Of a DNA stretch of 64,000 nt, positions 6,507-50,798 are shown one piece after another (position 1 is the first letter of the stretch; each line of letters opens with the position of its first letter). Below the pieces are notes generated by a model, which worked only from the letters and a program-made list of their open reading frames with translations, was not told the DNA's origin and ran no database searches. Made by a program: the position numbers and the translations under genes. The stretch is from the NCBI GenBank assembly GCA_013214705.1, contig JABSRZ010000003.1, positions 465,443 to 529,442 on the forward strand, written 5' to 3'. This DNA comes from Hyphomicrobiales bacterium (GTDB lineage Bacteria > Pseudomonadota > Alphaproteobacteria > Rhizobiales > OSC116).

Positions 6507-6938
6507 CTATACAAATTTTATAGAATCACTAAGTTTTTCGATTTTCTTGATTGCCTCTAGGATTGATAAATTACCTTTGCCGGGTAAGTCATAGATAACA
6601 TCAACCCGCTCTATGAGATTGCCAACCACCAGCAATCTCATAAAGCCTTCGCAGCACAAAACAGGCCGGTTTACACGTGGGACAACAAGTTCAAAACTAG
6701 CGGTGAAATTAATGTCGTCATCTGTTTTGGGTTGATCAAATTCGATTTGGATATGCTCTTGAATGTTATCTTTGCGCTTGGCATATTTGCAAAAGTCCAT
6801 TTGTGGGCCGTTATCAACTGAAAATCTGAAGGTGGTTGAAAAGAGGTTGGTGAGGCTGGATTCTTCACTGGTGTAAAAATTATTCATAAAAAAACTCACC
6901 AAATTGCGGTTGTTTTCTAGATTGCGAATGTGTTCCAT
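6507..6938 (-). CDS. Hypothetical protein, possibly NTF2/SnoaL-like fold
   Basis: A 143-residue protein of unknown function. Its strand-rich C-terminal half (ASFELVVPRVNRPVLCCEGF, then GNLIERVDVIYDL) resembles the ending of NTF2/SnoaL-like small domains; this is weak pattern reading. ATG 6938 has a GGAGAG site 8 bases upstream, and that start is conserved in the truncated duplicate at 15694, so I prefer it to the upstream TTG 6965. It lies immediately downstream of a LuxR solo on the same strand and follows a conserved leader hairpin. Confidence 0.6.
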   Translation of the reverse strand: MEHIRNLENNRNLVSFFMNNFYTSEESSLTNLFSTTFRFSVDNGPQMDFCKYAKRKDNIQEHIQIEFDQPKTDDDINFTASFELVVPRVNRPVLCCEGFMRLLVVGNLIERVDVIYDLPGKGNLSILEAIKKIEKLSDSIKFV

Positions 6939-6964
6939 TTGGCTCTCCAGTTCTGGTGAAATCA

Positions 6965-6997
6965 ACGCTCCAGTGTTGTCCCCACCACTGAGAGCGT
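6965..6997 (-). promoter_or_regulatory. Conserved leader hairpin before the NTF2-like gene
   Basis: An 11-bp stem (ACGCTC plus CAGTG pairing with CACTG plus GAGCGT, one bulged base) closes a 10-base loop just upstream of the ribosome site. The same stem is kept at 15720-15755 in the duplicated block although flanking bases have drifted. That suggests selection on RNA or DNA structure. A role in translation or as a terminator/attenuator after luxR is inference. Confidence 0.55.
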
Positions 6998-7232
6998 CTG
7001 GTCAGGGCACACTATTTCGGTGGCCCAATGACGTCTCTAAGAAACTAAAGTCACCCGGTTTTAAGTCAATACATCTATTCCGATATACCTGCTGTAAACC
7101 GCGCTTTCTTCAGGTTAAAATTCACCTGTTGTTAGCGTTAGCAACAGCAATGAATTTAATATTTGGCCAACTGTAATGCTGAATTTGAATAGAAGTTAAA
7201 TTTAAACCCAAACATTCAATAAATGCCACAAA
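6998..7232. other. Intergenic between LuxR solo 1 and the NTF2-like gene
   Basis: 235 bases without a gene. The half nearest the NTF2-like gene is conserved in the duplicate at 15756-15860, so it probably belongs to that gene's leader or promoter. Confidence 0.45.
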
Positions 7233-7991
7233 TTAGAACCAAAAATAACCATCGCGTATAGCTATGGCTAGGGCTTGATCACGGGTTTTTGCACCCAACT
7301 TATTGCGGATAACGGCAAGTCGTTTCCTCACGGTAATTTCAGCCACGTTCATTTTTTCGGCAATCTCGGCATTTTGCAACCCAGCAGCAAGCCAAGACAG
7401 AGCTTCTCTATCTCTCATGCTGAGAATGTTTCCGCCAAAATTTGAAACGCCTTTGAGAGTTCCATCACGTGGTACGGCAATATAGGCCGCTATAATGGCC
7501 ATTAAATGTTGTACATGTCTATCGGGTAATATTTTGGAAAACTCATTTACCGTTATGTCAGTGGCTATGACAATCAGTTTATGGTCGCGGTTAAAATTGG
7601 TATTAAAATTTGCCGAAAGCATACTATTGTGCCCAGAGTCAGCCAGTCCCTGATCAAAATCAATCATTCTACGGCTGGCAGTGGGGGAATTTTTTAATGA
7701 ACCGGTTGCCCTAATTTGAAATTTGTTTTCCAAGGGCATATTCAATATCACCGGGTCAACCTCGTAATATTTTTCCCCTGTATATTCATCCAACCACTGA
7801 TGCGACATTGAACTGCGCAGCAAATTGATCGAATTGGCACTGGTGGTTGTCACCACACCCAGTGCGGTGCCGCCGAAATGAGCCACTAATTTGTTGGCAA
7901 TTTCCCACCTTTTATCATCATCTGAAGTGGCTGATAATTGCTCAATAGTGCTGTTGATGAGGTTGGTAAATTTTTTGTCTATATCCGTCAT
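7233..7991 (-). CDS. LuxR-family regulator with autoinducer-binding domain (LuxR solo 1)
   Basis: A 252-residue regulator. Residues 25-165 look like the acyl-homoserine-lactone binding domain, with the W-x3-Y...Y-x3-DP signature in WLDEYTGEKYYEVDPV. Residues 188-250 form a LuxR helix-turn-helix (LSMRDREALSWLAAGLQNAEIAEKM, read in two parts, then TVRKRL). No luxI-like synthase is in the window, hence a solo. A close paralogue is at 15996-16754. Its position between the chemoreceptor and the NTF2-like gene suggests a local role, which is unproven. Confidence 0.88.
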   Translation of the reverse strand: MTDIDKKFTNLINSTIEQLSATSDDDKRWEIANKLVAHFGGTALGVVTTTSANSINLLRSSMSHQWLDEYTGEKYYEVDPVILNMPLENKFQIRATGSLKNSPTASRRMIDFDQGLADSGHNSMLSANFNTNFNRDHKLIVIATDITVNEFSKILPDRHVQHLMAIIAAYIAVPRDGTLKGVSNFGGNILSMRDREALSWLAAGLQNAEIAEKMNVAEITVRKRLAVIRNKLGAKTRDQALAIAIRDGYFWF

Positions 7992-8101
7992 AACGTGTAT
8001 TTATTAGTAATATGCGGCCATTTATATTTGGCGGTACAATTTCAGAATTTGTGGTTGGTAGTAAATTTGTGGTTTAGATATTTATATAGGTATTCGCAAA
8101 C

Positions 8102-8136
8102 AAAAAAACACCCCAAAAAAATTAATTTTTGGAGCG
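8102..8136 (-). terminator. Terminator of the chemoreceptor gene
   Basis: On the minus strand an 11-bp stem (CGCTCCAAAAA with TTTTTGGGGTG, two G-U pairs) closes a short TTAATT loop and is followed by seven T. It starts 17 bases past the chemoreceptor stop. The duplicate copy near 17070 has a decayed version. Confidence 0.75.
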
Positions 8137-8152
8137 CTCGATCATGTATTGG

Positions 8153-10225
8153 CTATGCCGCTTGCACGTCAGTCAAAAATTTAGCAATATTACCTTCAAG
8201 GCTGGTTAAATGGGTTTTTAAATCCACCGCGTAATTGCCGACTTCGCCTGAGATGTTCTGGGTGTGTGCTATCGATGTGCCGACAACTTTCATAGATTCA
8301 GAACTTTTCGCCGAAAGATCAGATGTATTGCTGATATTGGTTGCAATCTCATTCATCACCGCGTTTTGTTCCTCCACTGCGCTCGCTACGCTAACTGAAG
8401 CTTCCGAAAGGTTAGAAATCAAAGTTTCAACGTCATCAATTGCTGCAGAAGCATCACGAGAATCTGCTTGAATGGTTTCTATCTGCTGGGCAATTTCCTC
8501 AGTGGCTTTTGCGGTTTGACTAGCTAAAGATTTCACCTCATTGGCCACAACTGCAAAACCACGGCCAGCTTCACCAGCCCGCGCAGACTCAATGGTCGCA
8601 TTTAATGCCAACAAATTGGTCTGCTCGGCAATTTCTTCAATCAGCCGCACAACTTGTTGAATGCTTTTGGCACTTTCTGACAATTTATTCATGATAACCA
8701 CGGTATCTTTGGTTTTGGATTTAGCCGAAACCGCCATTTCAGTCGAGCGCGCCGCCTGTATAGATATTTCATTAATAGAGGCGACCATTTCTTCGGCAGC
8801 CGAAGACACACTGCTGACATTAAGTGAGGTGTCATCGACATTGGACATTACCCCCACGCTTTGCTTTTGCATTTCATCAGCTGAGACCGACAGGCCTTCA
8901 GATACCCGCTCGAGATCGTTTGAAGTGGAGAGCACCGTGCCGATTGAATCCTTACTTTTGGTTTGAAAAACATCTATTAGATTGGCAATTTCCTTAGATT
9001 TTTTTGCATCAAACTCCACTTGTTTATGGCGTTCTAACTGGGTGTCTCGGCGCTGGATGGCGTTTTGTTTAAACACCACCAAGGCTCTAACCATTTCGCC
9101 AATTTCATCTTTACGTTTCGCATCTAGTTCAAGCTCTGAGTTCAAATCATCCTCAGCCAAACTGCCCATATATTTTGTGATAGAATTTACCGGAGCCACG
9201 ATGGAGCGAGTGATGACGATGGCAAGGACAACTACAATCAACAAAGATGCTGCAATAAGCCCAGCAATGAAGTAAAGTTGGTTTTCCATTTCATTGGTTC
9301 GAGTTTGTGTATAAATGCCGATTTCAGCCGACAAATAATCATCAATCTCTTTATAAATGTCAATTTTTTGGCTAATGGTCGAAAACCACTTATTGGCAGA
9401 CACCGAAGACAAGTTAGGCGCATCGCTGTAAAGGCTATCAATTGCCACCACACGCATAGTTTCCACATCATTAAAGACCGATGCGCCAACTTTACGTTGG
9501 TAAAAGGAGAACTGTTCTGCCATGGCTGTGCGTTCAAACATTTTTATATAGGTTTTTTGATTGCTGATAACGCTGGTGAATTTTTTATAAGTCGCCTCAT
9601 TAAATTTGCCAGAACCAAACCCACTGGCTCCCATCGCACGTTCAATACCTGAATTTTCTTTGATATGCAGAAAACTAGAATAAGCCGTAATTTTATTGGT
9701 TAAAACGGCATCATTACTTAAAATCGCCATATATGAAACCATATCAATCAATTCGGCCGTTATACCTGAATAAAATACCGCCCCTTGGCTGGCCGAAGCT
9801 CCGCCGCCATCAACATTTGATCTAAAAGCCCTTAAGCCATTTAAATCCCGCTCAGTCTGCTCAACCATTCGCACAAAATCTTGCCCATAAATTGACCAAT
9901 CTGTGGTATTTGCTACGGTTAAGAATTTTTCTAATTGTTGATCTGTGAAGCCACGTTGCACGGTTAAATCGGCCATTACGCTAGATTTATCTGATGCCGA
10001 AATATAACCAACTGTGCGGCCACGTTCTTTTTGCAATTCATGGACTAAATTGGTGATGTAAGGGGAAAATTGCCCAAGCCGGTTTACTTTCTTCATCTGC
10101 CCTGTTTCACGAAAACCTTCGTAAAATACATTTCCAGCCAACATTATCAACACCAATAATGGTATCGATAGCAATAAGTATAATCGCGTATTAATTTTTG
10201 TATTCTCTAATATGGTTTTTAGCAT
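8153..10225 (-). CDS. Methyl-accepting chemotaxis protein with periplasmic NIT domain
   Basis: A 690-residue inner-membrane chemoreceptor. TM1 is at about 15-33. The periplasmic nitrate/nitrite-sensing type NIT domain is at about 50-290 ([15 protein letters not shown] is its hallmark). TM2 is at about 316-340, followed by HAMP and a signalling coiled coil with tip [20 protein letters not shown] (20 residues) and [17 protein letters not shown] 10225 is chosen for its GAGGGG site and because the truncated duplicate keeps the same start; the TTG at 10237 is rejected. Nitrate or nitrite as ligand is inferred from the domain. No che genes are adjacent. Confidence 0.95.
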
Positions 10226-10440
10226 TTTGCCCCTCAAAAATAAACAAATTCAGTGTGACTTGTCACAACTGCATTTGTTAAAAGCTAAGAACGAAGACAT
10301 TCGTCCTAGGTTATTCGAACGGGGCCATCATTGGCCTCGTCCACATCACGTATAGGGGACACTATTAGTGAATGAGTGTTAACGTTAATAACATGTGGTT
10401 AATAAATAGTTTACATTGCCAATGCAAATTGATTTTTATA
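10226..10440 (-). promoter_or_regulatory. Structured leader/promoter region of the chemoreceptor gene
   Basis: The region is conserved at 17351-17560 in the decayed duplicate. Two hairpins stand out. One is at 10289-10306 (GGACGAA with TTCGTTC, loop TGTC); in the other copy a G-U pair becomes A-U and the stem extends to 10 bp. A GGCCA/TGGCC hairpin lies at 10321-10338. A conserved block AGTGTCCCCTAT lies just upstream. It could be a 5' UTR regulator of the receptor; this rests on two copies only. Confidence 0.5.
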
Positions 10441-10688
10441 CACTCATTGCCGAAACCTCACTTAAATCAACCCCACCGAAAAGACTCAATTGGAGTTTTT
10501 TAAACCAAATTATATTAAGAATTTCACGGCCGCGTTCTAGCGAAAGCTAACGAAACTGCAGGCCTAAAGTTATTTAGAAATAATTTCGGCCGAGTAAAAA
10601 CACCATGAGAAGCAAAAAAACTTGATGGACAATTTGTCAGCTATATTTATTATCAATTCCATCGTTAAATAAAAAAAGGACACTGACC
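10441..10688. other. Intergenic between the chemoreceptor leader and the rhodanese gene
   Basis: 248 bases with no supported gene. It must hold the rhodanese promoter. A GCCGAAATTATTT / AAATAATTTCGGC-like symmetry lies near 10566-10595 but has no T-run and is not called. Confidence 0.4.
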
Positions 10689-11063
10689 ATGAAAACAGCA
10701 GCGATATATTTAGCAGAAGCCAATGAAGCCGTACCTCGCATTAGTGCCGAAGCGGCGATAGAAAAGCACAAGCAAGCCGGCAGTGTTTTTATTGACGTGC
10801 GTGATTCTGGCGAGATTGCCAAAAGCGGCACTGTTGAAGGTGCGCTTCGCATTAGCCGCGGTATGATTGAATTTATTGCCGATGACGCAACGCCGCACCA
10901 TAATGCAGCGCTTACCAAAGATGCTGACATTTATCTTATTTGTGCCGCCGGTGGACAAGCGGCATTAACCGGCAAAACAATGGTCGATATGGGGTATAAA
11001 AACATTACCAATGTTGGTGGTTTTAGCGACTGGAAAGCCGCTGGCGGCCCGACAGAAGATTAA
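10689..11063 (+). CDS. Rhodanese-like domain protein
   Basis: A single rhodanese domain of 124 residues. FIDVRDSGEIAKSGTVEGAL is the CH2-type entry motif and the active-site loop is CAAGGQAA, with catalytic Cys85. It ends in the usual NVGGFSDWKAAGGP. An AGGA site precedes ATG. It probably acts in sulfane-sulfur transfer in the cytoplasm; the acceptor is unknown. Confidence 0.9.
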   Translation: MKTAAIYLAEANEAVPRISAEAAIEKHKQAGSVFIDVRDSGEIAKSGTVEGALRISRGMIEFIADDATPHHNAALTKDADIYLICAAGGQAALTGKTMVDMGYKNITNVGGFSDWKAAGGPTED

Positions 11064-11138
11064 TGCAATATCAAGCCTTGGCATCGCAGTCGTTGCCAAG
11101 GCCAATATCAAAAGCCCCTATATGCAGTTGCAAAAAGT

Positions 11139-11933
11139 TTAACTCAATAACAGGCTATCGTCTGCCAATTCTTGGCCTTGGTCGCGTTTAAACAGGTCCA
11201 GCAGATCCTTCACTTGCATATTGGCGCGCTCCTCGCCTGTAATGTCAAAAATAATCTTGCCCTGATGGAACATAATGGTGCGATCGCCGGTTTCCAAAGC
11301 TTGGCTCATAGAATGTGTCACCATCACCACGGTCAAGTTCAGTTTTTTCACCAGTTTGTTGGTCAGCTCCATCACAAAGGCAGCGGTTTTGGGGTCTAAC
11401 GCCGCTGTATGCTCATCAAGCAGCAATACTTTTGTATCGCCGGTGGTGGCCATCAACAAACTTAAGGCTTGGCGCTGCCCGCCGGACAATAGGCCGACCA
11501 TATCATTTAACCGATCTTCTAGCCCCAAACCTAGCACGCTCAGGTTTTTGGCGGCTTGCTCTCGAATGTTAGAATTGACAGCAAAGCCAAAGCCTTTTGG
11601 CTGTGTGCGGCCACAAGCAATGGCGTAATTCTCCAATATCGACAAGTTTTCACAAGTCCCCATTTTAGGGTCTTGAAACACCCGTGATATAATTTTCGAC
11701 CGCTTATGAACCGCCCATTTGGTGATGTTGATGCCATTGACCACCACACTACCCTGCCCGACCGGCACAATGCCAGCTATCGAGTTTAATGAGGTCGATT
11801 TACCCGCCCCATTCGAGCCGATTACGGTCAAAAACTGGCCTTCGGGAATGTTCAAATCTATGCCGCGTAACGCCCGGGTTTCCAAGGGTGAGCCGGCGTT
11901 AAAAGTCACATGAATATTTTTCAGATCAATCAT
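11139..11933 (-). CDS. ABC transporter ATP-binding protein
   Basis: The 264-residue ATPase of the three-gene importer. It has Walker A GSNGAGKST near residue 40, signature LSGGQRQAL, Walker B VLLLDEHTAALDP and the H-loop VMVTHSM. Its ATG overlaps the permease stop by four bases, showing translational coupling. The E to EH change in LLDEHTAALDP is typical of this importer subfamily. Confidence 0.93.
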   Translation of the reverse strand: MIDLKNIHVTFNAGSPLETRALRGIDLNIPEGQFLTVIGSNGAGKSTSLNSIAGIVPVGQGSVVVNGINITKWAVHKRSKIISRVFQDPKMGTCENLSILENYAIACGRTQPKGFGFAVNSNIREQAAKNLSVLGLGLEDRLNDMVGLLSGGQRQALSLLMATTGDTKVLLLDEHTAALDPKTAAFVMELTNKLVKKLNLTVVMVTHSMSQALETGDRTIMFHQGKIIFDITGEERANMQVKDLLDLFKRDQGQELADDSLLLS

Positions 11934-12844
11934 GATTTACGGCCTTTCTTAGCGGCAAAATAATTGCGGCTATAATATTGAGCCACCAACACCAAAATTA
12001 CCAAGCCCGCTGTCACCATTTGCAAATCAGAGGCATTCAGGCCAGTGCCATCAGCATTCAGTGCCACGGCAATTGCCGAACGGTAGGCCACTGTCCCCAA
12101 AATCACTGCAAAAGTCGCTTGCCACATAAGCCGCGATGGCATTAATGACATGCCAATGATAACCGATGCCAAACCAATGATAATCATCCCGATGCCCGAT
12201 TGCGCGTCGGACGCGCCGATGGTTTGGGCAAATAATGCACCCGAAACACCCGCCAATGCATTGGCAATGCCAAGCCCGTATAATTTCATCTTATCGACAT
12301 TTATGCCGTTGGCGCGCGCCATTTCGGGGTTTGCCCCAGCGGCCCGCATCGATAGGCCTATGCCGGTCGATAAAAAGGCATCAAGCAATAGTTTAATCAC
12401 AATAATCAACGCGCCCAAAAACAACGTCTTGGCTTCAAACGATGCCATAACTTCTACAGTGTCAAACCAAGTATAAACCGTATCGACATTCAGCAATGGC
12501 TCATTAGGGCCGTCCATTACACGTATGTTGATAGAGTAAAGCGCTGTCGCCACCAATATGCCCGATAATATATGCAATATTTTAAATTTAACATTTAAAG
12601 TTGCGGTTAGATAACCTGCGCCAAAACCGGCGATGCCGGCGCAAAATGTCGCCACCCATGGGTTGGATAAAACCGGTAAGCCAGAGGTGATCAACACCGC
12701 CGCAACCGATGCCCCAAACGGAAAGCTGCCCTCTACCGTCAGGTCAGGAAAATCTAATATTTTAAAGGTGATAAACGCACCAAGCGCCAATATCGCAAAG
12801 ATAAAGGCCAGCTCCAACGTTCCCATAAACTCATAATAAGACAT
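11930..12844 (-). CDS. ABC transporter permease (branched-chain-like importer family)
   Basis: A 304-residue polytopic inner-membrane permease of the BPD_transp_2 family, with many hydrophobic helices and the conserved MRAAGANPEMARANGI loop that contacts the ATPase. Its neighbours are the binding protein upstream and the ATPase downstream. The set matches the ABC_sub_bind importer family, some of which handle aromatic amino acids (TrpXYZ); the substrate here is not known. Confidence 0.92.
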   Translation of the reverse strand: MSYYEFMGTLELAFIFAILALGAFITFKILDFPDLTVEGSFPFGASVAAVLITSGLPVLSNPWVATFCAGIAGFGAGYLTATLNVKFKILHILSGILVATALYSINIRVMDGPNEPLLNVDTVYTWFDTVEVMASFEAKTLFLGALIIVIKLLLDAFLSTGIGLSMRAAGANPEMARANGINVDKMKLYGLGIANALAGVSGALFAQTIGASDAQSGIGMIIIGLASVIIGMSLMPSRLMWQATFAVILGTVAYRSAIAVALNADGTGLNASDLQMVTAGLVILVLVAQYYSRNYFAAKKGRKS

Positions 12845-12867
12845 TCATTCCCCGTCCAATCAGTCGC

Positions 12868-12899
12868 AAAAAAGACCAGCATAAATAAATATGCTGGCC
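12868..12899 (-). terminator. Intra-operon terminator after the binding-protein gene
   Basis: The minus strand reads CCAGCATA, an A/T loop, TATGCTGG, then TCTTTTTT. It lies between the binding-protein stop and the permease start. Partial termination here would give more binding protein than membrane subunits, a common arrangement. Confidence 0.8.
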
Positions 12900-12915
12900 T
12901 CATTATATTTATATT

Positions 12916-13899
12916 TTATTCAAACACTTGAGTGGCGCTTGCAATCACATCAGCAGGTATAGTCACACCCATTTTTACGGCAGAAGCTAAATTCACCACA
13001 ATTTTAAAATCGGTTACATTTTTGTAAGCGACCAAAGCGTCAATATCACCAACTGTTTGGCCGTCCAAAATATCGGCAACCATGCCACCAGCAACAATGC
13101 CATGCGCAAAGTAATCTAGACCAACAGAAGCTATAACACCCACTTCAACATGGCCAGTTTCACCAGCAAATATTGGCGTATCAGTGTCTTGACCAATTTT
13201 GATAATACCAGCAATGGCCGAAATTACAGTTGTGTCGTTCGGCACGTATATCGCATCGACCTTGCCAACCAATCGCTTAGTGGCTATCAACACTTCATTC
13301 ACTGTTGGTGCTGCGCTTTCGACAACTATAATGCCCATTTTGGCACTTTCTTCTTTTAACCAACCTAAAGTGGCCAAAGCGTTATCTAAGCCAGGGTTAT
13401 AAATAAAGCCGATTTTTGTCAAACCGGGTACAATTTTCTTAAACAATGCAAGCTGGGTTGCAATGGGCGCGGCGTCAGAAACACCGGTTACATTTTTACC
13501 GGGCTTGATATATTGCGCAATCAACTCGGCTTTAACCGGATCGGTAATGGCTGCAAATACAATCGGAATGTCTTTGGTATTGGCAACAGCGGCTTGGGCT
13601 GTTGGGGTGGTGATGGCCACCAAAACATCTGGGTTTTGGCCAATAAATTTCTTAACAATCTGGGCATTGGTATCCATTTTACCATTGGCTTGCTTGTAAT
13701 CAATGGTCAGGTTTTCACCGACCACCCAGCCGCGTAGCTTCAGTCCTTCAATAATGCCTTCTTTGGTTTCGACCAATGGCGGCACATCTACCAAGTTAGC
13801 AATCGCCACGGTTTTCATCTCAGCTGCAAAGGCTGCGCCCGCAATTAAAGTTGAGGCCACTAAACCAGTTAGCCCTTTAATAAACATATTCTTTTTCAT
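12916..13899 (-). CDS. ABC transporter substrate-binding protein (ABC_sub_bind family)
   Basis: A periplasmic binding protein of 327 residues, first gene of the importer operon. The signal peptide is at 1-25 (MKKNMFIKGLTGLVAST, then AGAAFAAE). The family pattern KTVAIANLVDVPPL ... VGENLTIDYKQANG ... KNVTGVSDAAP is clear. ATG 13899 with a GGGAGAG site is preferred to GTG 13905. Confidence 0.92.
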   Translation of the reverse strand: MKKNMFIKGLTGLVASTLIAGAAFAAEMKTVAIANLVDVPPLVETKEGIIEGLKLRGWVVGENLTIDYKQANGKMDTNAQIVKKFIGQNPDVLVAITTPTAQAAVANTKDIPIVFAAITDPVKAELIAQYIKPGKNVTGVSDAAPIATQLALFKKIVPGLTKIGFIYNPGLDNALATLGWLKEESAKMGIIVVESAAPTVNEVLIATKRLVGKVDAIYVPNDTTVISAIAGIIKIGQDTDTPIFAGETGHVEVGVIASVGLDYFAHGIVAGGMVADILDGQTVGDIDALVAYKNVTDFKIVVNLASAVKMGVTIPADVIASATQVFE

Positions 13900-14250
13900 A
13901 TACACTCTCCCACTAATCGCTGATTAAATCAGCTTAAAAAATTGATTTTCTAGCCACCACCGCACATTGTCAAGTTTATTTTCACTGACCATAAGAAGCT
14001 AACGATATATAGTGTTACTTATCAAAGGCATGATTATGCACCAGGTCGGTATTATATGGCAAATAATGCCCGTATTTTCATCGCCTAATTAATGCGCCAG
14101 ACACAAACCAGAAACACATGCATACCTCAAGTATTGCCCTATAAAAACTCCATAGAAGCTGTGATAATGGTATTTTGGAACAAAATAAGCGAGATGCCCC
14201 GGCCACCTCTCACCCAGTATACAATATGATAAAGTTGAAAAATATTGTCA
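13900..14250. other. Intergenic before the decayed gene
   Basis: About 350 bases holding the importer promoter. Nothing else was recognised. Confidence 0.4.
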
Positions 14251-15292
14251 TATGGAAATATTAACCAATGCAAATACAATAAATAAAAATTTTAAGGCAA
14301 TCCTGAACAAGAAAGATATGGGTCGAGGCCAAAAATCTGCTTTTACGCGACTATTGTAATGAAACTAAAACTGAAATTGCTCCGATAACTGACAGATTCA
14401 ACCAAGATTTGGAACAAATAGCAGGATATCGAGAAGATTTAATTGGCAATGGCGAAGAAAATATTGAAACAGAAATAGAAAATTTTAGAACCAACATATT
14501 AGATAGGTCAGGAAATTTTAATCCTCATTAAGAAAAAATAAAAACTGTTTATACAGATATTGATAATCCCCATGACAATGACGAAGGCGAGAAAGGATAT
14601 TGCCAAGTAATTCAAGATAACGTGGAGGAAACCGAGAATTTTGAAAACTCAACTCTAAAATTAGAGCCGGATTTGACGATGTCCCTTTAAAATTATATGG
14701 GAATCCAGAATTAAAGATAACAGGCTTAAAAGATGATTATATCGAGTTGTTCGAGATTTGTGAAAAATAACGACAAAAAATTGAAGCCAAGAATGAAGAA
14801 TTTTCGAAAATTATTGCTAATACGTTAGAAAAGGCAACAAACGCGGCTTGCCAAAACATTTGAAGACCAAAAGAGTAAATACTTAATACCAAAAACACTA
14901 TGGAACGGGATATTTATGTTGTGCATGTTTGCAATGGCATTTGTAGCTTTACCAATATTTGATATACAAAAGTTCACTCCAGCAAATTTTAGCTTATCAA
15001 TAGCACATATCTCTGAATTAGCAGCAGACGTTCAGACGACTATATTGGAAACATATATATATACAATTCTTCACCAAAACTAACACTTATTTTACCGCTG
15101 ATTTGGTTGGCAATTTATGCCAGCAACCAACAAAGCCAAAATAAAAGATTAGAGGAAGAATATGCTCACAAACCAAATGTTGCAAAAACATACATGGGCC
15201 ACAAGAGACAACTTGAAGCACTTGATGATAGCGAAGACAAGTCCAGACGGCCGTTAGATCGAGTCTGCACTAATACATGTAATTATCTTTGA
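14251..15292 (+). pseudogene. Decayed membrane/coiled-coil protein gene
   Basis: A row of open segments in shifting frames reads as one broken protein. It opens with MEILTNANTINKNFKAIL, then an acidic central part interrupted by at least five stops or frameshifts. Next is a hydrophobic helix (GIFMLCMFAMAFVALPIF), a second one (LTLILPLIWLAIYA), and a C-terminal coiled coil (EEYAHKPNVAKTYMGHKRQL). The last part resembles the EYAHKE-x-AKSY pattern of a widespread uncharacterised membrane family. No intact copy is in the window. Function unknown. Confidence 0.6.
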
Positions 15293-15625
15293 TTTAGATC
15301 TTTAGAAACGATTATTGCCCGACAGTATTCTACTTTTTGTCAGATTTGGCACCATGTTCTCGATTTGATCATGAGCCGCTGGCTCACCGACAAATGAGCT
15401 AAAAAAACAGCGTCTTCGAACCAACATACCTATAAAATAGATTAGCGCACGCGATTTCCAAATCCACACTAAATAGTCAAAGCAAGGTACTGGTTGCCCT
15501 AGGGGTCGGGGAGACTAATCAAGCAACCAGTAAAAAATAGTTTTACCACTATTTATACTAATGTATACTTAATTATAACAGTAATACATTAATATTAAAT
15601 ATTGATTTATTTAATTAATTTATAT
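15293..15625. other. Intergenic, AT-rich
   Basis: About 330 bases with no gene seen. It ends at the left edge of the second copy of the duplicated LuxR/chemoreceptor block. Confidence 0.4.
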
Positions 15626-15694
15626 TTAGTAAATCTTGATTGCAAAAAAACTCACTAAGTTGAAGTTATTTCCCAAATTGCGAATGTGATTCAT
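15626..15694 (-). pseudogene. Truncated 5' end of the NTF2-like gene (duplicate)
   Basis: The first codons (MNHIRNLGNNFNLVSFF) match the start of the intact gene at 6938, with a GGAGGG ribosome site. After about 17 residues similarity ends and a stop follows. This edge marks the left end of the second duplicated block. Confidence 0.7.
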
Positions 15695-15719
15695 TTGTCC
15701 CTCCAACTCCGGTAAATTC

Positions 15720-15755
15720 GACGCTCCAGTGTTGTCCCTAACCACTGAAAGCGTC
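15720..15755 (-). promoter_or_regulatory. Second copy of the NTF2-gene leader hairpin
   Basis: GACGCT pairs with AGCGTC and CAGTG with CACTG around a loop of about 11 bases. It is the counterpart of the hairpin at 6965-6997. Confidence 0.5.
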
Positions 15756-15995
15756 TGGTCAAATGAGCCCACTAGTGTGCCAAAAATAACGTACAATAAG
15801 TATTTAAGGTCACCGGCCTTGAAGTCAATATATCGAAACCGATAAAAGTCCGGTGGGATGGGTGATAAATAGATTGGCAAATGCTTAATTAGTTATCTGA
15901 TAAGGCGAGTGATAAATTTGTATTTTGGAAACAAACATATCTATTAATTTATTAAGTGTTTGAATTCACACTGTATATCCAACAATTATTAAAGA

Positions 15996-16754
15996 CTAAA
16001 ATGAAAAGTGACCATCGCGGACTGCTATGGCGAGAGCTTGATCCCTTGTTTTTGCCCCCAGCTTATTTCGTATAATCGTGAGCCGTTTTCGAACGGTTAT
16101 TTCAGCAATGTTCATTTTTTCGGCAATCGCTGCATTTTGCAACCCAGCAGCAAGCCAGGCCAAAACTTCTTTCTCTTTTGGCGAAAGAACATTTCCACCA
16201 AAATTTGAAACTCCTTTGAGGTCTGCATCGTGTGGCACTGCAACATATGCCGAAATAATTGCCATTAAATGTTGTATATGTTTGAAGGAAAGTATTTTTG
16301 CGAATTCCTCCATAGGCATATCCGTGGCAATGCCAACGAGTTTATGATCTCGGTTAAAATTCATATTAAAATTTCCCGTATACAAACTGTTATAGTCAGC
16401 GTCAGCGAGACTACGATTAAGTTCTATTAGTTTACGACTTTCAACAAACCCTTTTTTGAGTAAATTGGGTGCCCTAATTTGAAATTTATTTTCAAATGGC
16501 ATATTCAGTACAAATGGGTCAACTTCATAATATTTTTCTACTAAATATTCGTTCACCCACTCCTCCGACATGGAACTACGCAGCCAATTGACCGAACTAG
16601 CTCCAGAGCTAGCCACTACACATAGTGAAGTCCCGCCAAACTGACGAACTAAATTATCGGCGATTGCCCATCTCATGTCATCATCTGACGTGGATGAAAA
16701 TTGTTCAATTGCATCATTGATTTGATAGGTGAAGTTTTTGTCTATATTTGTCAT
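15996..16754 (-). CDS. LuxR-family regulator with autoinducer-binding domain (LuxR solo 2)
   Basis: A 252-residue paralogue of the regulator at 7233-7991, the same length and alignable throughout. The ligand-domain signature is kept (WVNEYLVEKYYEVDPF), as is the C-terminal HTH (KEKEVLAWLAAGLQNAAIAE, then TVRKRLTIIRNKLG). The frame is fully open, whereas both neighbours in this duplicated block are ruined, so the gene seems to be under selection. Divergence is greater in the ligand domain than in the HTH. No luxI is present. Confidence 0.87.
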   Translation of the reverse strand: MTNIDKNFTYQINDAIEQFSSTSDDDMRWAIADNLVRQFGGTSLCVVASSGASSVNWLRSSMSEEWVNEYLVEKYYEVDPFVLNMPFENKFQIRAPNLLKKGFVESRKLIELNRSLADADYNSLYTGNFNMNFNRDHKLVGIATDMPMEEFAKILSFKHIQHLMAIISAYVAVPHDADLKGVSNFGGNVLSPKEKEVLAWLAAGLQNAAIAEKMNIAEITVRKRLTIIRNKLGAKTRDQALAIAVRDGHFSF

Positions 16755-17116
16755 AACTTGTTTTCAATTTTTTTTAATTTATCGGAAATGTGCAGCCAAA
16801 ATATTTTGAAAAATTACACTGCTAGAAAACCTCGATTACTAAATTAATCGGTATAATACATGTAATGTACAATTCAATAATATCAATTTTTTGGGTTCTG
16901 TTCGTTGAGAAAATACAAATCAAATTCATTGGCCAGCTTAATCGTAGGCTAAACAGAATGGACTTAATTTCCGTTAGAATTCACTCTTTTGACAGCTGAT
17001 GGATGCACAATAAACTCGGCCAATACACTACCTGATGTTTCTTTAATTTTGGAGCGAGAAAAACCATAAAAAGCACCCCAAAAATCAATTTTGTGTTGCT
17101 CGAACTATATTTTCAA
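16755..17116. other. Intergenic between LuxR solo 2 and the chemoreceptor remnant
   Basis: 362 bases with no gene. The part near 17065-17110 is a degenerate copy of the chemoreceptor terminator. Confidence 0.4.
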
Positions 17117-17350
17117 TTACGCCGCTTGCCCGTCAGTCAAAAATTTTGCAATATTTTTTAAACGCTACTTAAGTGGTTCTTAAATCCCTTGCATAATTGC
17201 CCAATTCGCCGGAGATATTTAGGGTATACGCAATCGATATACCGACAACTTTCATTGATTCTGAGTTTTTTGTCGGAAGTTCAAATGAATTGTTAGTAAT
17301 AAATAAATTCGCATATTGATTTTAGTATTTTCTAAAATAGTTTTAAGCAT
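17117..17350 (-). pseudogene. Chemoreceptor remnant: both ends kept, middle deleted
   Basis: The right part begins with ATG at 17350 and encodes [12 protein letters not shown], as in the intact chemoreceptor. The left part matches its last about 60 codons, down to a terminal DGQAA before TAA. The junction is near 17293-17305, so about 1.8 kb of the receptor gene is missing, and the joined frame is broken. Confidence 0.8.
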
Positions 17351-17560
17351 TTAGTCCCCCAAGATCTGCCAAATTCAGTTTAAATTGTTACAACTGCATT
17401 TGTTAGAATTTAAGAACGAAGACATTCGTTCTTAAAAATGGAATTCGGCCACCATTGGCGTCGTTCGTATCACGCATAGGGGACACTATGATTGATTGAG
17501 TATTAACGTTAACTAGGGCTGGTTAATAAATAGTTTACAATGTGCTTTCAATTTAATATT
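17351..17560 (-). promoter_or_regulatory. Second copy of the chemoreceptor leader
   Basis: Matches 10226-10440. The hairpin at 17411-17434 is a perfect 10-bp stem (TAAGAACGAA / TTCGTTCTTA) with the same four-base loop, and the GCCA/TGGC hairpin at 17448-17460 is also kept. Confidence 0.5.
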
Positions 17561-17991
17561 TGTAATAAAACTACATAAACCGCCAGTACTCGAACATTTT
17601 GGACCAACTACATATTTACCCAAAACTCTAGGTGTAAATGATCTAAAATAGCGCCAAGGTTAAACTTTGGAATATTTTTTTGATGGTCGATCCATCATAA
17701 TATATCTGTGTAAAGTTACATTTTCTGATGCATCTAAATGTGAGCCAGCATCAGGTCTTGCAGATTTAATCTAAACGCAGGATTTTAACAATTCAAATGG
17801 TTTGAGATAAATTGTTGTTTGAACTAGGCAGAGTTTCTTTCATTTTTGTCGGGTAATTATTCACAACGCCGGGCTTTCTAAACGACATAGGCACAAAAAA
17901 TTAATTGATGGCTATGTGGTAGCTAGACTAAATCACCAAGCCAAATACAAGAATGATAATTATACAATTTACTGGTATATTAAAGTGACTT
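17561..17991. other. Intergenic before island 1
   Basis: About 430 bases of AT-rich DNA. No gene, promoter or repeat that I can support. It is the last chromosomal stretch before the first tRNA-Arg partial copy. Confidence 0.4.
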
Positions 17992-18102
17992 TGGTGCACC
18001 CGACGAGATTCGAACTCATGACCTCTGCCTTCGGAGGGCAGCTTAAGCTATTATAGACATTAAATACATACCCACCTAACGCTCTGATATATAATGTCGT
18101 AG
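17992..18102 (-). repeat. Attachment-site repeat 1 (tRNA-Arg 3' half plus element flank)
   Basis: 17992-18042 is identical to the 3' part of tRNA-Arg(CCG), including the anticodon-stem side, T-arm, acceptor and CCA. 18043-18102 is a flank shared with the copies at 26271 and 29618 (CCACCTAACGCTCTGATATA core) but not with the intact tRNA. It is the outer end of the island array. Confidence 0.88.
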
Positions 18103-18156
18103 AAGTATCAATTCAAATGCTGGACTATATCTGCGCTCAGATGCATTTCATAATTG

Positions 18157-24610: not shown

Positions 24611-24919
24611 ATGTTATCACTTTTAACCGCCTCTCAAGCACAAGAATCTATTGCGAAGAACCTACGCACAAAACGACTAGGGACAGGCCTAACTCAAGCT
24701 GGCCTTGCTGATCGCTCTGGGGTTAGCCTTCCATCATTGCGGCGGTTTGAGCAAAGTGGCAACATTTCTCTCGAGTCGCTCTTAAAGTTACTTATGACTT
24801 TAAACAGCCTAGAGCAATTTGTGCAATCAACAGAACCCATTTCTACTGAATTTTCTTCAATTGATGATGTGCTGAATGACAAGAAGAAAAAGACACCTAA
24901 AAAGGGTTGGCGTAAATGA
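24611..24919 (+). CDS. hipB: HipB-type antitoxin (XRE helix-turn-helix)
   Basis: A 102-residue protein with an XRE HTH (TQAGLADRSGVSLPSLRRFE) and a Lys-rich C-terminal tail. I take ATG 24611; the longer frame from 24476 adds 45 residues unlike the family. It overlaps hipA by 4 bases (ATGA). Known function of the family: binds the operon promoter and neutralises HipA. Confidence 0.88.
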   Translation: MLSLLTASQAQESIAKNLRTKRLGTGLTQAGLADRSGVSLPSLRRFEQSGNISLESLLKLLMTLNSLEQFVQSTEPISTEFSSIDDVLNDKKKKTPKKGWRK

Positions 24920-26148
24920 AACACACACCCATAACAGAAATCAAAGTCGGTCTCGAAATTACCAACAAAATTACCCCCGTCGGCAGGCTAGCCCTTAATG
25001 ATGGTAAAATTTATTTTGAATATGACCGTGATTTTTTACAATCTTCTCTAGAGTTATCGCCCTTAAAGTTGCCAAGACAAGCAGGCCTGCAAACATTTGA
25101 TAGATATTTATTCGAAGGCCTATCTGGATTATTTAATGATAGCTTGCCCGATGGTTGGGGGCGATTGTTATTAGATAGATCAGCACGGCTACAAGGCATA
25201 TTACCCGATGAATTAAGCCCACTTGATCGACTTGCGCATGTTGGCAAAATAGGAATGGGTGCACTAACCTATGAACCTGACCAGCAGACCGACACATCGA
25301 GCGGTCAAATTGATCTAGATGCTCTTGCAGTACAGACGCAAGAAGTCATGGATGGCGAGGCATCTGAAGTATTGCAAGAGCTGATATCGCTAAATGGATC
25401 ATCAGCGGGGGTGCGCCCTAAAGCGCTTATTGGTTTAGATGCTGAGCGTATAAACATTATTCATGGCACAGATACAACACAAACAGGATTTGAGCCATGG
25501 TTAGTCAAATTTTCAAATAGTGAAGATGGGTCAGATGCGGGCGCAATTGAACATATTTACGCAATCATGGCAAAAGATGCGGGACTAGAAATGATGCCAA
25601 CACATCTATTTTCTGCCCAAAAAGGCGCGGGCTATTTTGCGACAAAAAGATTTGACCGCGACAATAATAAGCGCATTCACACACATAGCGCATGCGGCCT
25701 GCTACATTCCGATTTCAGAACACCCTCGCTAGATTATGCTGATTTACTTAAACTCACGTCAATTCTAACGCGTGATGTACGAGAGGTTGAGAAGATGTTT
25801 AGATTAGCTGTTTTTAACGTCTTGGCACATAACCGTGACGACCACTCAAAGAATTTCAGCTTTTTAATGAACGAAACAGGAGAGTGGAAACTGTCACCTG
25901 CCTATGATTTAACATTCTCATCAGGACCTAGAGGCGAGCAAAGTACGATGGTTATGGGTGAAGGGAAAAACCCAGCAGATGAACAGCTAACCAAACTTGG
26001 CATCGAAGCAAATATTAACCAACAATCAATCGTTGCAATTGTCGACCAAACGCAAGCAGCACTTAGTCAATGGCGAGCATTAGCAATAAAATATAGCGTA
26101 AGCAAAGCTAATATTAAACTGATCGATGAAAGGATAAATAAGTCATAA
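24916..26148 (+). CDS. hipA: HipA-type serine/threonine kinase toxin
   Basis: A 410-residue HipA kinase. The Gly-rich autophosphorylation/ATP loop is NGSSAGVRPKAL at 160-171. The catalytic HNRDDHSKNFSF is at 305-316 and the metal-binding PAYDLTF at 328-334. All expected catalytic residues are present, so the toxin looks active. HipA proteins phosphorylate aminoacyl-tRNA synthetases; the target here is not known. It is cargo of island 1, next to its right attachment repeat, and may help stabilise the island. Confidence 0.93.
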   Translation: MKHTPITEIKVGLEITNKITPVGRLALNDGKIYFEYDRDFLQSSLELSPLKLPRQAGLQTFDRYLFEGLSGLFNDSLPDGWGRLLLDRSARLQGILPDELSPLDRLAHVGKIGMGALTYEPDQQTDTSSGQIDLDALAVQTQEVMDGEASEVLQELISLNGSSAGVRPKALIGLDAERINIIHGTDTTQTGFEPWLVKFSNSEDGSDAGAIEHIYAIMAKDAGLEMMPTHLFSAQKGAGYFATKRFDRDNNKRIHTHSACGLLHSDFRTPSLDYADLLKLTSILTRDVREVEKMFRLAVFNVLAHNRDDHSKNFSFLMNETGEWKLSPAYDLTFSSGPRGEQSTMVMGEGKNPADEQLTKLGIEANINQQSIVAIVDQTQAALSQWRALAIKYSVSKANIKLIDERINKS

Positions 26149-26270
26149 GAGCACAAATTAACACTCAAAAGGATTTCGAACCTCAATCCTTCATACAAAA
26201 CAGTAATTTAAGAAAATTATTCAAAATTACAAAAAAATTCAACAACAAATATAATCAATGTGTTGAATAA

Positions 26271-26385
26271 TGGTGCATCCGACGAGATTCGAACTCATGA
26301 CCTCTGCCTTCGGAGGGCAGCGCAAACTATTATAGTCAATAATTAATTATCCACCTAACGCTCTGATATATATAACGATAGAGCA
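26271..26385 (-). repeat. Attachment-site repeat 2
   Basis: 26271-26323 matches the tRNA-Arg(CCG) 3' half with one acceptor-stem mismatch (GCATCC for GCACCC). The following 60 bases carry the shared element flank (CCACCTAACGCTCTGATATA). It separates islands 1 and 2. Confidence 0.87.
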
Positions 26386-26749: not shown

Positions 26750-28990
26750 ATGCGCCTGATTAATAAGTTTATATTTCCTATTGCGACGTTAATCATTGGC
26801 ATATTCGTGTCATTATTCGGAACTGCAACTATAATTAATTTGGAAAACGGCCGAATTATTAAGAATTTTCAACAAAATTCTGCAGACCATATCGCAACCA
26901 TAGAGCAGTCCTTAATCGTCAATTTAAACGCTCTGACACAAATTAGAACTTTTTTTGACTCAAGCAATTTTATTACGAGACATGAGTTTAAAACACTCAC
27001 CTCGCCTTATCTTTTAACCAACCAACATGTTCAGGCATTGGAGTGGATTCCCGCTGTCAATCATTCTCAACGTAGCCACTTCGAAACACTCGCCATAAAT
27101 GACGGTTTCGTTGACTTTCAATTCAAACAACGCAGCGAAACAGGTGAAATGATAGTCGCCCCGGAAAAAGATACATATTACCCAGTATTTTATGTAGAAC
27201 CCGTCGCCGGTAATGAGGCAGCCATCGGCTTTGATTTAGGTTCAAACCCAGCACGGCTAGCAGCTTTAGATAAGTCTATCCAAAGTGGCTTAGCTGTAGC
27301 AACGGCACCTATTACACTTGTACAAGAGACCGAAAAACAAACTGGAATACTCGTATTTGTACCCATATATAGCAATAAAGTCTTAGACACTGCTGCCTCT
27401 GAATGGAGCCTGGCGCAAAGGCGAGAAAACATCACTGGATTTGGTTTACTTGTGTTACGAGTTGGTGATTTAATCACATCATCTATCGACCACTTTCATA
27501 CCAATAATGTTGTGATAATCGATGACATAACCGACACAGAAAACATCCATGGCCTCTATAATCTAAATCAACAAATAGAATATAAATACGACCTAAAAGT
27601 GGAAAAGTTAATTGATGTGGCTGGCCGAACATGGCGTATAACCGTGTTTCCCGAAAGTAAAAACTATTTACTAAATAACGACTCTAGGGTATGGTTAATT
27701 TTCTTATTGGGCACCATAGTTACTTTAATTTTGAGCTATTATTTAAAGCAAATGATATCCCGCGAAGATATTATTAATCAACAAGTGGCGCAAAAAACAA
27801 CCGAATTGGCGCAAAGTTTATTAGATGTGGAGGCAGCCAACGCCATCAAATCTGAATTTCTAGCTGCTATGAGCCATGAAATACGCACACCAATGGCTGG
27901 TATAATTGGTATGTCGGACCTTATTTTAAGCCGTGATTTGGAACCAAATGTGCAAGAATGGGCTACAAGCATCAAGTCTTCCAGCAACCACCTAATGAAA
28001 ATACTGAACGAAATTTTAGACCAATCAAAACTTGATGCGGGTAAGATAGTGATCGATTCTGTCGATTTCCACATCGCCTCTTTTGTCAAACAAGTGTCCG
28101 ACTTGTTCCGCCCCAAGATTGTATCAAAAGGGCTCACACTAACCATAGATATTGACGAAGCGGTTTCGGAAGGAGCCCGCGCGGATCCCTTCCGTGTCAC
28201 GCAGGTTCTAACAAACCTACTCAGCAACGCCCTTAAGTTTTCAGAAAAAGGTGATATTTTGCTGCATGTGGGGCAAGAAGAGACGGTTGAGGGCAAAATC
28301 TTTCTCAAATTTTCGGTTATTGACAACGGCATTGGGTTAAGTCTCGATGCCCAGAAGAGCCTTTTCTCACCTTTCGTCCAAGCTGATAGCTCTACCAGCA
28401 GAACCTATGGTGGAACCGGACTCGGGCTGTCTATCTCAAAACAACTAGTGGAATTGATGGGTGGCGAGATAGGCGTTTCTAGCGTTAAGGGAGTAGGGAG
28501 TAAATTTTGGTTTACGGTAGAAATAATGCCGACCCAAGGAAAGTTAACGACATATGGTACCAAAGAAGTAGGTCATAAATGGCAAGCAAATAGGGCGATG
28601 AAGATTTTGGTGGCTGAAGATACGGACTATCTTCAAGAACTTATAAGGACCATTTTGGTTAACCTAGGTCATGAAGTAACCATAGTGGCCAATGGGGAGT
28701 TAGCTGTCAAGGCTGTTCAAAAACAGGACTTCGAACTCATTTTGATGGACATCCGTATGCCTGTAATGGACGGGTTGGAGGCCACTGCAATCATTCGATC
28801 GCTTAAAGACAATAAATCAATTATTCCTATTATTGCAATAACGGCAGATGTCTCTTCGAGCAATGTGGGTGAATATCTCAAAAAGGGAATGAATCACGTT
28901 TGTAGCAAGCCGATTGACCTCGCTGATTTGCTTAATCAAATAAATAAGGTGGTTGGCGAAGAAGTCCATACCAAATCGATCAAGTTCTGA
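26750..28990 (+). CDS. CHASE-domain hybrid sensor histidine kinase
   Basis: A 746-residue inner-membrane sensor. TM1 is at about 7-30, a periplasmic CHASE domain at about 70-250 and TM2 at about 313-333. The dimerisation domain carries phospho-acceptor His376 (MSHEIRTPM). The ATPase domain has LLSNALKF (491-498), VIDNGIGL and [11 protein letters not shown]. The C-terminal receiver has Asp667 ([13 protein letters not shown]). There is no output domain, so a phosphotransfer protein or response regulator must act elsewhere. It is the only intact gene of island 2, placed between attachment repeats 2 and 3. Confidence 0.93.
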
Positions 28991-29190: not shown

Positions 29191-29617
29191 ACAAGAACAA
29201 GACAGACATCGAACTGGCAAAATAGTGTTAGAAGTATTGGCGCATTAATAGAGAATAGGTGCTAATTATATTATGTAGCATATCCGCACATAAGACTGAG
29301 TTAAGGGGCACAATGCCTGCAGGTCTAATTATTCTGACGATTTGTGACCGCAACAGCTTAAAAGTCATTCATTAGTTGGGTGGTTTTTAACCCAATCAGA
29401 GGCCATTTGTTGTGCCTTTTCAATTTGGGATGGTGTCATTTTTTAGCGATTGCATCCCTGACTTAAATCCAGCTGAGCAAATTCATAAAAACAATCATCC
29501 TAGTTTGGTTGCTTAATGTTGCCTGTAATATGACGAAAGAAGAATTATGGTGATTGCTATGTGATTGTTAGCGGGTTTAATGGTGTTTAGGTTAATGCGT
29601 CAAACCATTGCTGAGAT
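29191..29617. other. Intergenic, right part of island 2
   Basis: About 430 bases without an intact gene. It holds a possible Sel1-protein tail (29365-29439). Confidence 0.4.
29365..29439 (-). pseudogene. Possible C-terminal tail of a Sel1-repeat protein
   Basis: 24 codons reading MTPSQIEKAQQMASDWVKNH and ending in TGA. The TPxQIxxAQ-x(2)-A-x-(D/E)W pattern is common at the C-terminus of Sel1/TPR-like proteins. Upstream codons contain a stop. A fragment at best. Confidence 0.35.
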
Positions 29618-29728
29618 TGGTGCACCCGACGAGATTCGAACTCATGACCTCTGCCTTCGGAGGGCAGCTTAAGCTATTACAGACATTAAATACATATCCA
29701 CCTAACACTCTGATGTATATGGTCATGT
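29618..29728 (-). repeat. Attachment-site repeat 3
   Basis: 29618-29668 is identical to the tRNA-Arg(CCG) 3' half, followed by the same element flank as repeats 1 and 2. It is the left end of island 3, whose right end is the intact tRNA gene at 50722. Confidence 0.88.
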
Positions 29729-49610: not shown

Positions 49611-50618
49611 TTATCCAAGTTTATCTGCAATGTTTTCAGGTTTTAAATGGGTGTATTTAAACAGCATTCTGGGGTCTCTATGACCGCTTATGAGAGCTAC
49701 TTCTGGCACTGACAGGCCAAGTTCAAACAACCTACTAATTGCCTCGTGGCGCAGGTCGTGAAACCTTAATTCTAGTATTGTGGGAATTTTCTTAGCTGCT
49801 CTTTGTTTGCATCTTTCCCATGCCAATCTAAATGCATTTCCAGTGATCTCGAATAACCTTTGGTTATCACTACAGAGCTGCTTTAGCCTAGCTTTGAAAA
49901 TTGACAGCGATGTTGATGATAACGGAATTGTTCTAGTGAACCCATTCTTTGTATGAGGAATTTTCAGCACTCTAGCCTTAAAGTCCAGATCGCACTTTCT
50001 AACATTCAATAGCTCACCGCGACGCATACCAGTTTCAATGGCAAGCAGTATGCATTTGGTAAGCCAATCATCCTGACACTTCAAATTCACTTTTATTAGT
50101 GTTTCTAGTTCATCATCTTCTAGTCTTCGGGTACGTGATTCTGGCTGTCGAGGTTTACGAACTTTAACCAATGGATTTTCATGAAGTGGTATATCCCATT
50201 CATTACGAGCGGTTTCAAATATAGCCCTCAGTAGCCCTAGTTCGCGTATAACAGTGCCAGCACTAACTTGTTTGTTGCGCATGTCTCTATGCTCTACAAA
50301 TGTATATGGAGTTATTTGAATGAGGGTAAGCTTCGCCCAATCGTATTTAAGGAATACATTCAGCCTTAAAACTTCCGCATCTTTGCCTCTGTGGTGAATT
50401 GAAACATTATCTCTAAACCGCTCTATCAGATCACCTACAGTCAGCACCTTCAAAATACTGGTGTTAACTGGCAAGACGCGTTTATCCATATCACTTTCAA
50501 TCAGGCGCACCCATGCCTGAGCATCACTTTTTGATATAAATGAATTACATTGTGATTTATGCCCAACACGCCTTACTTGTGCGTGCCATTTATTATTCCG
50601 TTTTCTTATACTCGCCAT
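49611..50618 (-). CDS. int: Tyrosine recombinase / integrase of the tRNA-Arg islands
   Basis: A 335-residue phage-type integrase. An N-terminal arm-binding region is followed by a core-binding domain (about 60-150) and a catalytic domain with R199 (GMRRGEL), K224, H287 and R290 (FHDLRHEA), H313 (SGHRDP) and nucleophile Y322 (LFKYTH). All catalytic residues are present, so it is probably active. It points away from the intact tRNA-Arg(CCG) gene 104 bases away, the standard layout for integration into a tRNA 3' end. Confidence 0.95.
   Translation of the reverse strand: MASIRKRNNKWHAQVRRVGHKSQCNSFISKSDAQAWVRLIESDMDKRVLPVNTSILKVLTVGDLIERFRDNVSIHHRGKDAEVLRLNVFLKYDWAKLTLIQITPYTFVEHRDMRNKQVSAGTVIRELGLLRAIFETARNEWDIPLHENPLVKVRKPRQPESRTRRLEDDELETLIKVNLKCQDDWLTKCILLAIETGMRRGELLNVRKCDLDFKARVLKIPHTKNGFTRTIPLSSTSLSIFKARLKQLCSDNQRLFEITGNAFRLAWERCKQRAAKKIPTILELRFHDLRHEAISRLFELGLSVPEVALISGHRDPRMLFKYTHLKPENIADKLG

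Positions 50619-50721: not shown

Positions 50722-50798
<77 letters not shown>

Follow-up and report, generated by a model that had tools for sequence, protein, structure and literature searches.

An old duplicated block with an intact second LuxR solo and a decayed chemoreceptor copy in a Hyphomicrobiales bacterium

LuxR solos of Alphaproteobacteria, in the sections of PMC4338825 used here, combine an autoinducer-binding domain with a LuxR HTH, have no cognate luxI, occur several to a genome and are inferred to have been duplicated. For Rhizobiales, the same sections describe adjacent solo pairs that likely stem from duplication, clusters of solos within the same strain and varying pocket residues. 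The two LuxR proteins analyzed here resemble these solos in the LuxR HTH, the missing luxI, the number of solos in one genome, the duplication and the varying pocket residues, and their match to the autoinducer-binding domain is borderline. In contrast to the described cases, a whole block was copied, the neighbours decayed and one neighbour is a chemoreceptor. In addition, the pair is 66% identical and lies 8.8 kb apart, whereas the pairs in these sections of PMC4338825 are adjacent and share 30-40%. A second likeness is to the PAB LuxR solos (OryR/XccR group), which also carry altered AHL-pocket residues; according to the portions of PMC10134790 and PMC3821632 considered here they replace W57 and Y61, whereas the present proteins keep these two and replace W85 and G113. 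The best NCBIfam match of both proteins was TIGR03541 (reg_near_HchA, PA1136-family autoinducer-binding regulator). However, only the HTH matched (residues 183-249), scoring 49 bits where 215.6 are required, and both are thus not members of this family. Duplicated LuxR solos have already been described, and the present pair is best read as an ordinary case of a kept duplicated regulator.

The window, that is the whole stretch of 64,000 nt that was analyzed, contains a block at 6873-10440 on the minus strand with the 5' end of a small gene, luxR A and a NIT chemoreceptor (MCP) including its upstream region. This block recurs on the same strand at 15629-17564. A repeat search, BLASTN and a whole-genome DNA search agreed on the recurrence, which an earlier note had proposed. 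The start at 6.5 kb given there had to be corrected, because copy 2 ends inside the small gene and the common part begins at 6873. The repeat finder paired 6873-6982 with 15629-15738, 7214-7989 with 15977-16752 and 8213-8330 with 17175-17292 (72-79% identity; spacings of 8756, 8763 and 8962), and a fourth piece, 10164-10440 with 17289-17564, followed at a spacing of about 7125. BLASTN joined the repeat into three pieces of 1140, 277 and 231 columns (E 3e-40 to 0), and in the whole-genome search the copy-2 pieces ranked near the top, behind the block itself. Beyond the block, similarity on the CutC side was shuffle-like, with 278 of 300 shuffles reaching the observed score, and beyond 10440 it was only borderline (1 of 300 shuffles as high). 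The GC content of copy 2 is 0.359 versus 0.412 for copy 1. Beside copy 2, all three frames of 14257-15250 (plus strand) are broken and hold no intact ORF; this segment is a decayed gene.

In copy 2 only luxR stays open, over 252 codons, and both neighbours are broken, as the earlier note had stated. The chemoreceptor of copy 1 is intact (8153-10225, minus strand, ATG at 10225) and shows the NIT, HAMP and MCPsignal domains. Its counterpart is a remnant at 17115-17350 (minus strand) in which the 3' end is joined to the 5' end, matching 8153-8330 and 10164-10225. An internal deletion of about 1.83 kb, the counterpart of 8331-10163, has fused the first ~20 codons to the last ~58. The 3' remnant is disrupted by two gaps of 1 nt each and by a nonsense codon (GAA to TAA), and the first 20 codons have no stop and no gap. 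The small gene of copy 1 is an ORF of 152 aa (6507-6965, minus strand) with a likely start at an ATG near 6938 behind GGAG. In copy 2, alignment and the repeat finder revealed a remnant of its start at 15629-15738 (minus strand), where the first ~22-31 codons are left before unrelated AT-rich sequence and the 3' part is gone. The earlier label of this gene as NTF2-like could not be substantiated, as the window member had no Pfam or NCBIfam match at E 0.001. The small-gene family occupies 12 places in its own genome, G000 (E<=0.01), with members on C44, C23, C2, C14, C41 and C13, and 1 to 11 places in each of five other genomes of the genus. A hairpin-forming segment directly before the small-gene start is conserved in both copies (6936-7010 and 15692-15768, minus strand).

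Both luxR genes are ORFs of 252 codons on the minus strand, luxR A at 7233-7991 and luxR B at 15996-16754. They align without gaps over 759 nt (556/759 identical), with a GC content of 0.395 in luxR B versus 0.428 in luxR A, and 167 of 252 residues (66%) are identical in the proteins. GerE, the C-terminal LuxR HTH, scored above its cut-off of 23.5 bits in both (47.5 in A, 54.9 in B). Autoind_bind (PF03472, cut-off 23.0) was just exceeded by A with 23.1 bits and just missed by B with 22.7, only the first 63 of 149 profile positions being matched. The two domains have diverged to a different extent, since 56/70 residues of the HTH (80%) but only 111/182 of the sensor domain (61%) are identical (p 0.005). 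For the AHL pocket we used the six residues W57, Y61, D70, P71, W85 and G113 (TraR numbering), as listed in the portions used of PMC10134790, PMC3821632 and PMC4338825. Four of these are kept in both proteins as W66, Y70, D79 and P80. In a MAFFT alignment with L040, read by eye, the W85 column is R94 in both and the G113 column is M124 in A and L124 in B, so that neither protein has the complete pocket of an AHL-responsive LuxR. At the HTH positions E178, L182 and G188, with columns set by motif spacing and without a TraR alignment, B has E194, L198 and G204, and A has D194, L198 and G204. The luxI family (PF00765, Autoind_synth) had no match in the own genome, which is 98.87% complete, and both proteins are therefore LuxR solos; among the six genus genomes one had an Autoind_synth match. 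An AlphaFold prediction of LuxR B from an alignment whose sole other row was LuxR A reached a mean pLDDT of 36.5 and was too poor for use.

Age and selection were evaluated with a codon model on four taxa, luxR A, luxR B and the relatives G001:C85 and G003:C152. The A branch has 0.47 and the B branch 0.68 neutral substitutions per nt, which places the two copies about 1.2 neutral substitutions per site apart, similar to the distance between the two relatives (0.86 + 0.62). The block duplication is thus an old event; a recent second luxR, the objection that the earlier note had raised against its own proposal, was not what we found. Omega was 0.24 for luxR A and 0.15 for luxR B. In this comparison of dN/dS, which that note had suggested, omega=1 was rejected for B (2dlnL 5.66) and not for A (2.74, not significant). 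How omega divides between the two branches is poorly constrained, as the outgroups are distant, at 42% identity with an internal branch of about 2.3 neutral substitutions per nt, and polarisation is weak. At sites on which the outgroups agree, A and B each have 16 residues unique to them, and relative rates are hence equal. Differences between the copies fall on codon positions 1/2/3 as 61/35/106, a strong third-position bias (p 4e-11), and no gap event occurred in the 759 nt of luxR, against nine in the spacer between luxR and the small gene and two in what is left of the MCP 3' end. Simulations, in which the indel rate was scaled to the MCP remnant and rests on two events, gave an unselected luxR B a probability of staying intact of 0.47 at 0.01, 0.22 at 0.02, 0.024 at 0.05 and 0.0013 at 0.10 neutral substitutions per site.

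The earlier note had taken the survival of luxR alone as its argument for a function of the second copy. A chemoreceptor copy that is neutral from the time of duplication should be highly divergent at every codon position and barely alignable. In contrast, the MCP remnants differ from copy 1 at 20/158 of positions 1-2 and at 31/80 of third positions (p 9e-6), although the still-working copy 1 supplies part of this bias. Divergence was similar to that of luxR at third positions (31/80 versus 106/253, p 0.70) and no higher than that of luxR at positions 1-2 (20/158 versus 96/506, p 0.07). From the third-position bias and the low divergence at positions 1-2 we conclude that selection maintained the copy-2 chemoreceptor during much of the interval and that its loss came late; by our own estimate from 20/158, its neutral time is at most roughly 0.135 substitutions per site. 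The outlasting of its neighbours by luxR is thus weaker evidence than it seemed, since the MCP remnants were also constrained and luxR B had little time to decay on its own, and the survival argument does not hold as it was put. The case for retention is carried by the rate data and less by differential survival. A function of its own is nevertheless likely for luxR B, because an old copy was kept as a protein, as judged from the equal rates (16 versus 16), the codon-position bias and an omega of 0.15.

The control regions of the copies were compared as well. Sequence directly upstream of luxR is not common to them (31 of 300 shuffles score as well), and the segment upstream of luxR B (16755-17060, minus strand) is unlike that of luxR A and occurs only once in the genome. 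Both copies have the MCP upstream region in common (0 of 300 shuffles). In copy 2 this region lies at 17351-17564 (minus strand), has one gap and is identical to copy 1 at 162/214 positions, above the third codon positions (196/333, p 5e-5). In each copy it folds well (z -3.6 and -3.4) and contains the dyad AAGAACGAAGACATTCGT, which occurs only at two places in the genome, the two block copies. This dyad, on the plus strand, forms a conserved hairpin in a structured MCP leader (10226-10330 and 17351-17455, minus strand). Close to the MCP start lies a palindrome that we considered as a candidate lux box; this idea was dropped, as nothing links the palindrome to LuxR. After the stop of the copy-1 MCP, a terminator-like hairpin with a T run is located at 8106-8139 (minus strand, fold z -4.12), which suggests that luxR A is transcribed separately from the MCP, and a single MCP-luxR operon in copy 1 was rejected on this ground. 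The corresponding hairpin of copy 2 is weaker (-8.7 versus -17.0 kcal/mol). Together, the MCP upstream region, the luxR upstream regions and the copy-1 hairpin suggest that expression differs between the two luxR genes.

Relatives were searched in five other genomes of the genus, in a collection with one genome per species. Two of the five contain full-length luxR relatives (42-44% identity) in a different gene setting. In both, G001 and G003, the gene is not beside a chemoreceptor and is divergent from a neighbouring regulator, which we take to be alpha/beta-hydrolase-like. No close relative with a retained luxR B was found in these five genomes. Among 397 genomes of the order, 12 including the own one matched at 1e-12, and only the own genome, G001 and G003 exceeded 40% over the full length; among 385 genomes of the class only the own one matched at 1e-20. 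Plasmids yielded 14 records, eight of them listed, with no more than 28% over the length, and a scan of genome contigs gave only HTH-level matches at four loci (residues 190-248). The ABC operon between the two copies was found in four of the five other genus genomes. In the neighbourhoods listed, L085, L087 and L088 (L086 was left out), a gene that is presumably undecaprenyl-diphosphate-synthase-like lies directly upstream of the operon or one gene away. MCP and luxR were absent from the ABC-operon stretches of the four relatives (tblastn with 11 window genes), where gene order has changed too much for the insertion to be dated. CutC relatives occur in four of six genomes including the own one (~40%) and the rhodanese-like gene only in the own one, so that neither provides a synteny anchor. 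Rfam matched only the tRNA in the window. This tRNA-Arg(CCG) at 50722-50798 adjoins a phage-type integrase (49611-50618), and its 3' 51-53 nt recur near 17992, 26271 (one mismatch) and 29618, within repeat places at 17986-18098, 26265-26377 and 29612-29724. Nested or tandem integrative elements probably extend from ~18.0 to 50.7 kb, ending just beside copy 2. A HipA-like protein (24916-26148) and a CHASE hybrid histidine kinase (26750-28990) are located in the region of these repeats.

We consider it probable that luxR B is a retained paralogous LuxR solo with DNA targets similar to those of luxR A and with a signal and an expression pattern of its own. The block, comprising the small gene, a luxR solo and the NIT chemoreceptor, would have been duplicated long ago in the lineage, or a related block acquired, and purifying selection would have maintained both LuxR proteins. 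The copy-2 chemoreceptor would also have been kept for long before its late loss through the internal deletion and small lesions, and with the small gene truncated luxR B would now persist on its own as a functional LuxR solo. Given the conserved HTH, its DNA sites are probably similar to those of luxR A, and it likely answers a different signal or condition, because its upstream sequence is distinct and its sensor domain has diverged more than the HTH. Two observations count against retention: at ~0.02 neutral substitutions per site or less an unselected luxR B survives with a probability of 0.2 or more, and luxR B has a lower GC content and lies within a segment of low GC (13906-18156, 0.353) that holds no other intact long ORF. 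Alternatively, the whole of copy 2 may have been functional until recently and then lost its purpose, with luxR B merely not yet hit. The biased MCP remnants (20/158 versus 31/80), no more diverged than luxR at positions 1-2, their first 20 codons without stop or gap and the low GC would all fit such a course. We still regard it as unlikely, as small lesions are concentrated in the remnants, with three in the 3' part of the MCP and none in the 759 nt of luxR, luxR B shows no excess of specific residue changes and its neutrality was rejected over the whole branch.

It is unlikely that copy 2 is a related block gained from another lineage, with the luxR genes as xenologues. The large synonymous distance and the lower GC of copy 2 agree with such a gain, as does the tRNA-Arg-linked integrative region that starts at 17986. 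However, copy 2 lies outside the tRNA-fragment repeats, decay may explain the low GC, and the two copies were each other's closest relatives in all genus, order, class and plasmid searches; on these matches we infer an origin within the genome. A variant of retention, compatible with the main reading, is that luxR B is driven from the preserved MCP upstream region by readthrough of the MCP remnant, so that promoter and regulator form the retained unit. This is rather doubtful: the conservation of that region, the leader folded in both copies and the weaker hairpin after the copy-2 MCP point in its direction, yet the conservation may stem from the era of the intact chemoreceptor, and ~600 nt separate the region from luxR B. 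Returning to retention as such, a split-input pair, in which luxR B with a new promoter and a changed pocket acts on the same operators as luxR A and one ancestral circuit would receive two signals, is a tentative extension of rather low probability.

The general picture of LuxR solos is unchanged by luxR A and luxR B. On a small scale, the locus cleanly illustrates a way in which LuxR solos may multiply, in that a block is copied, the DNA-reading half is kept, the sensing half drifts and linked genes are lost. Intact and broken copies in one genome would provide built-in controls for shared targets versus different signals.
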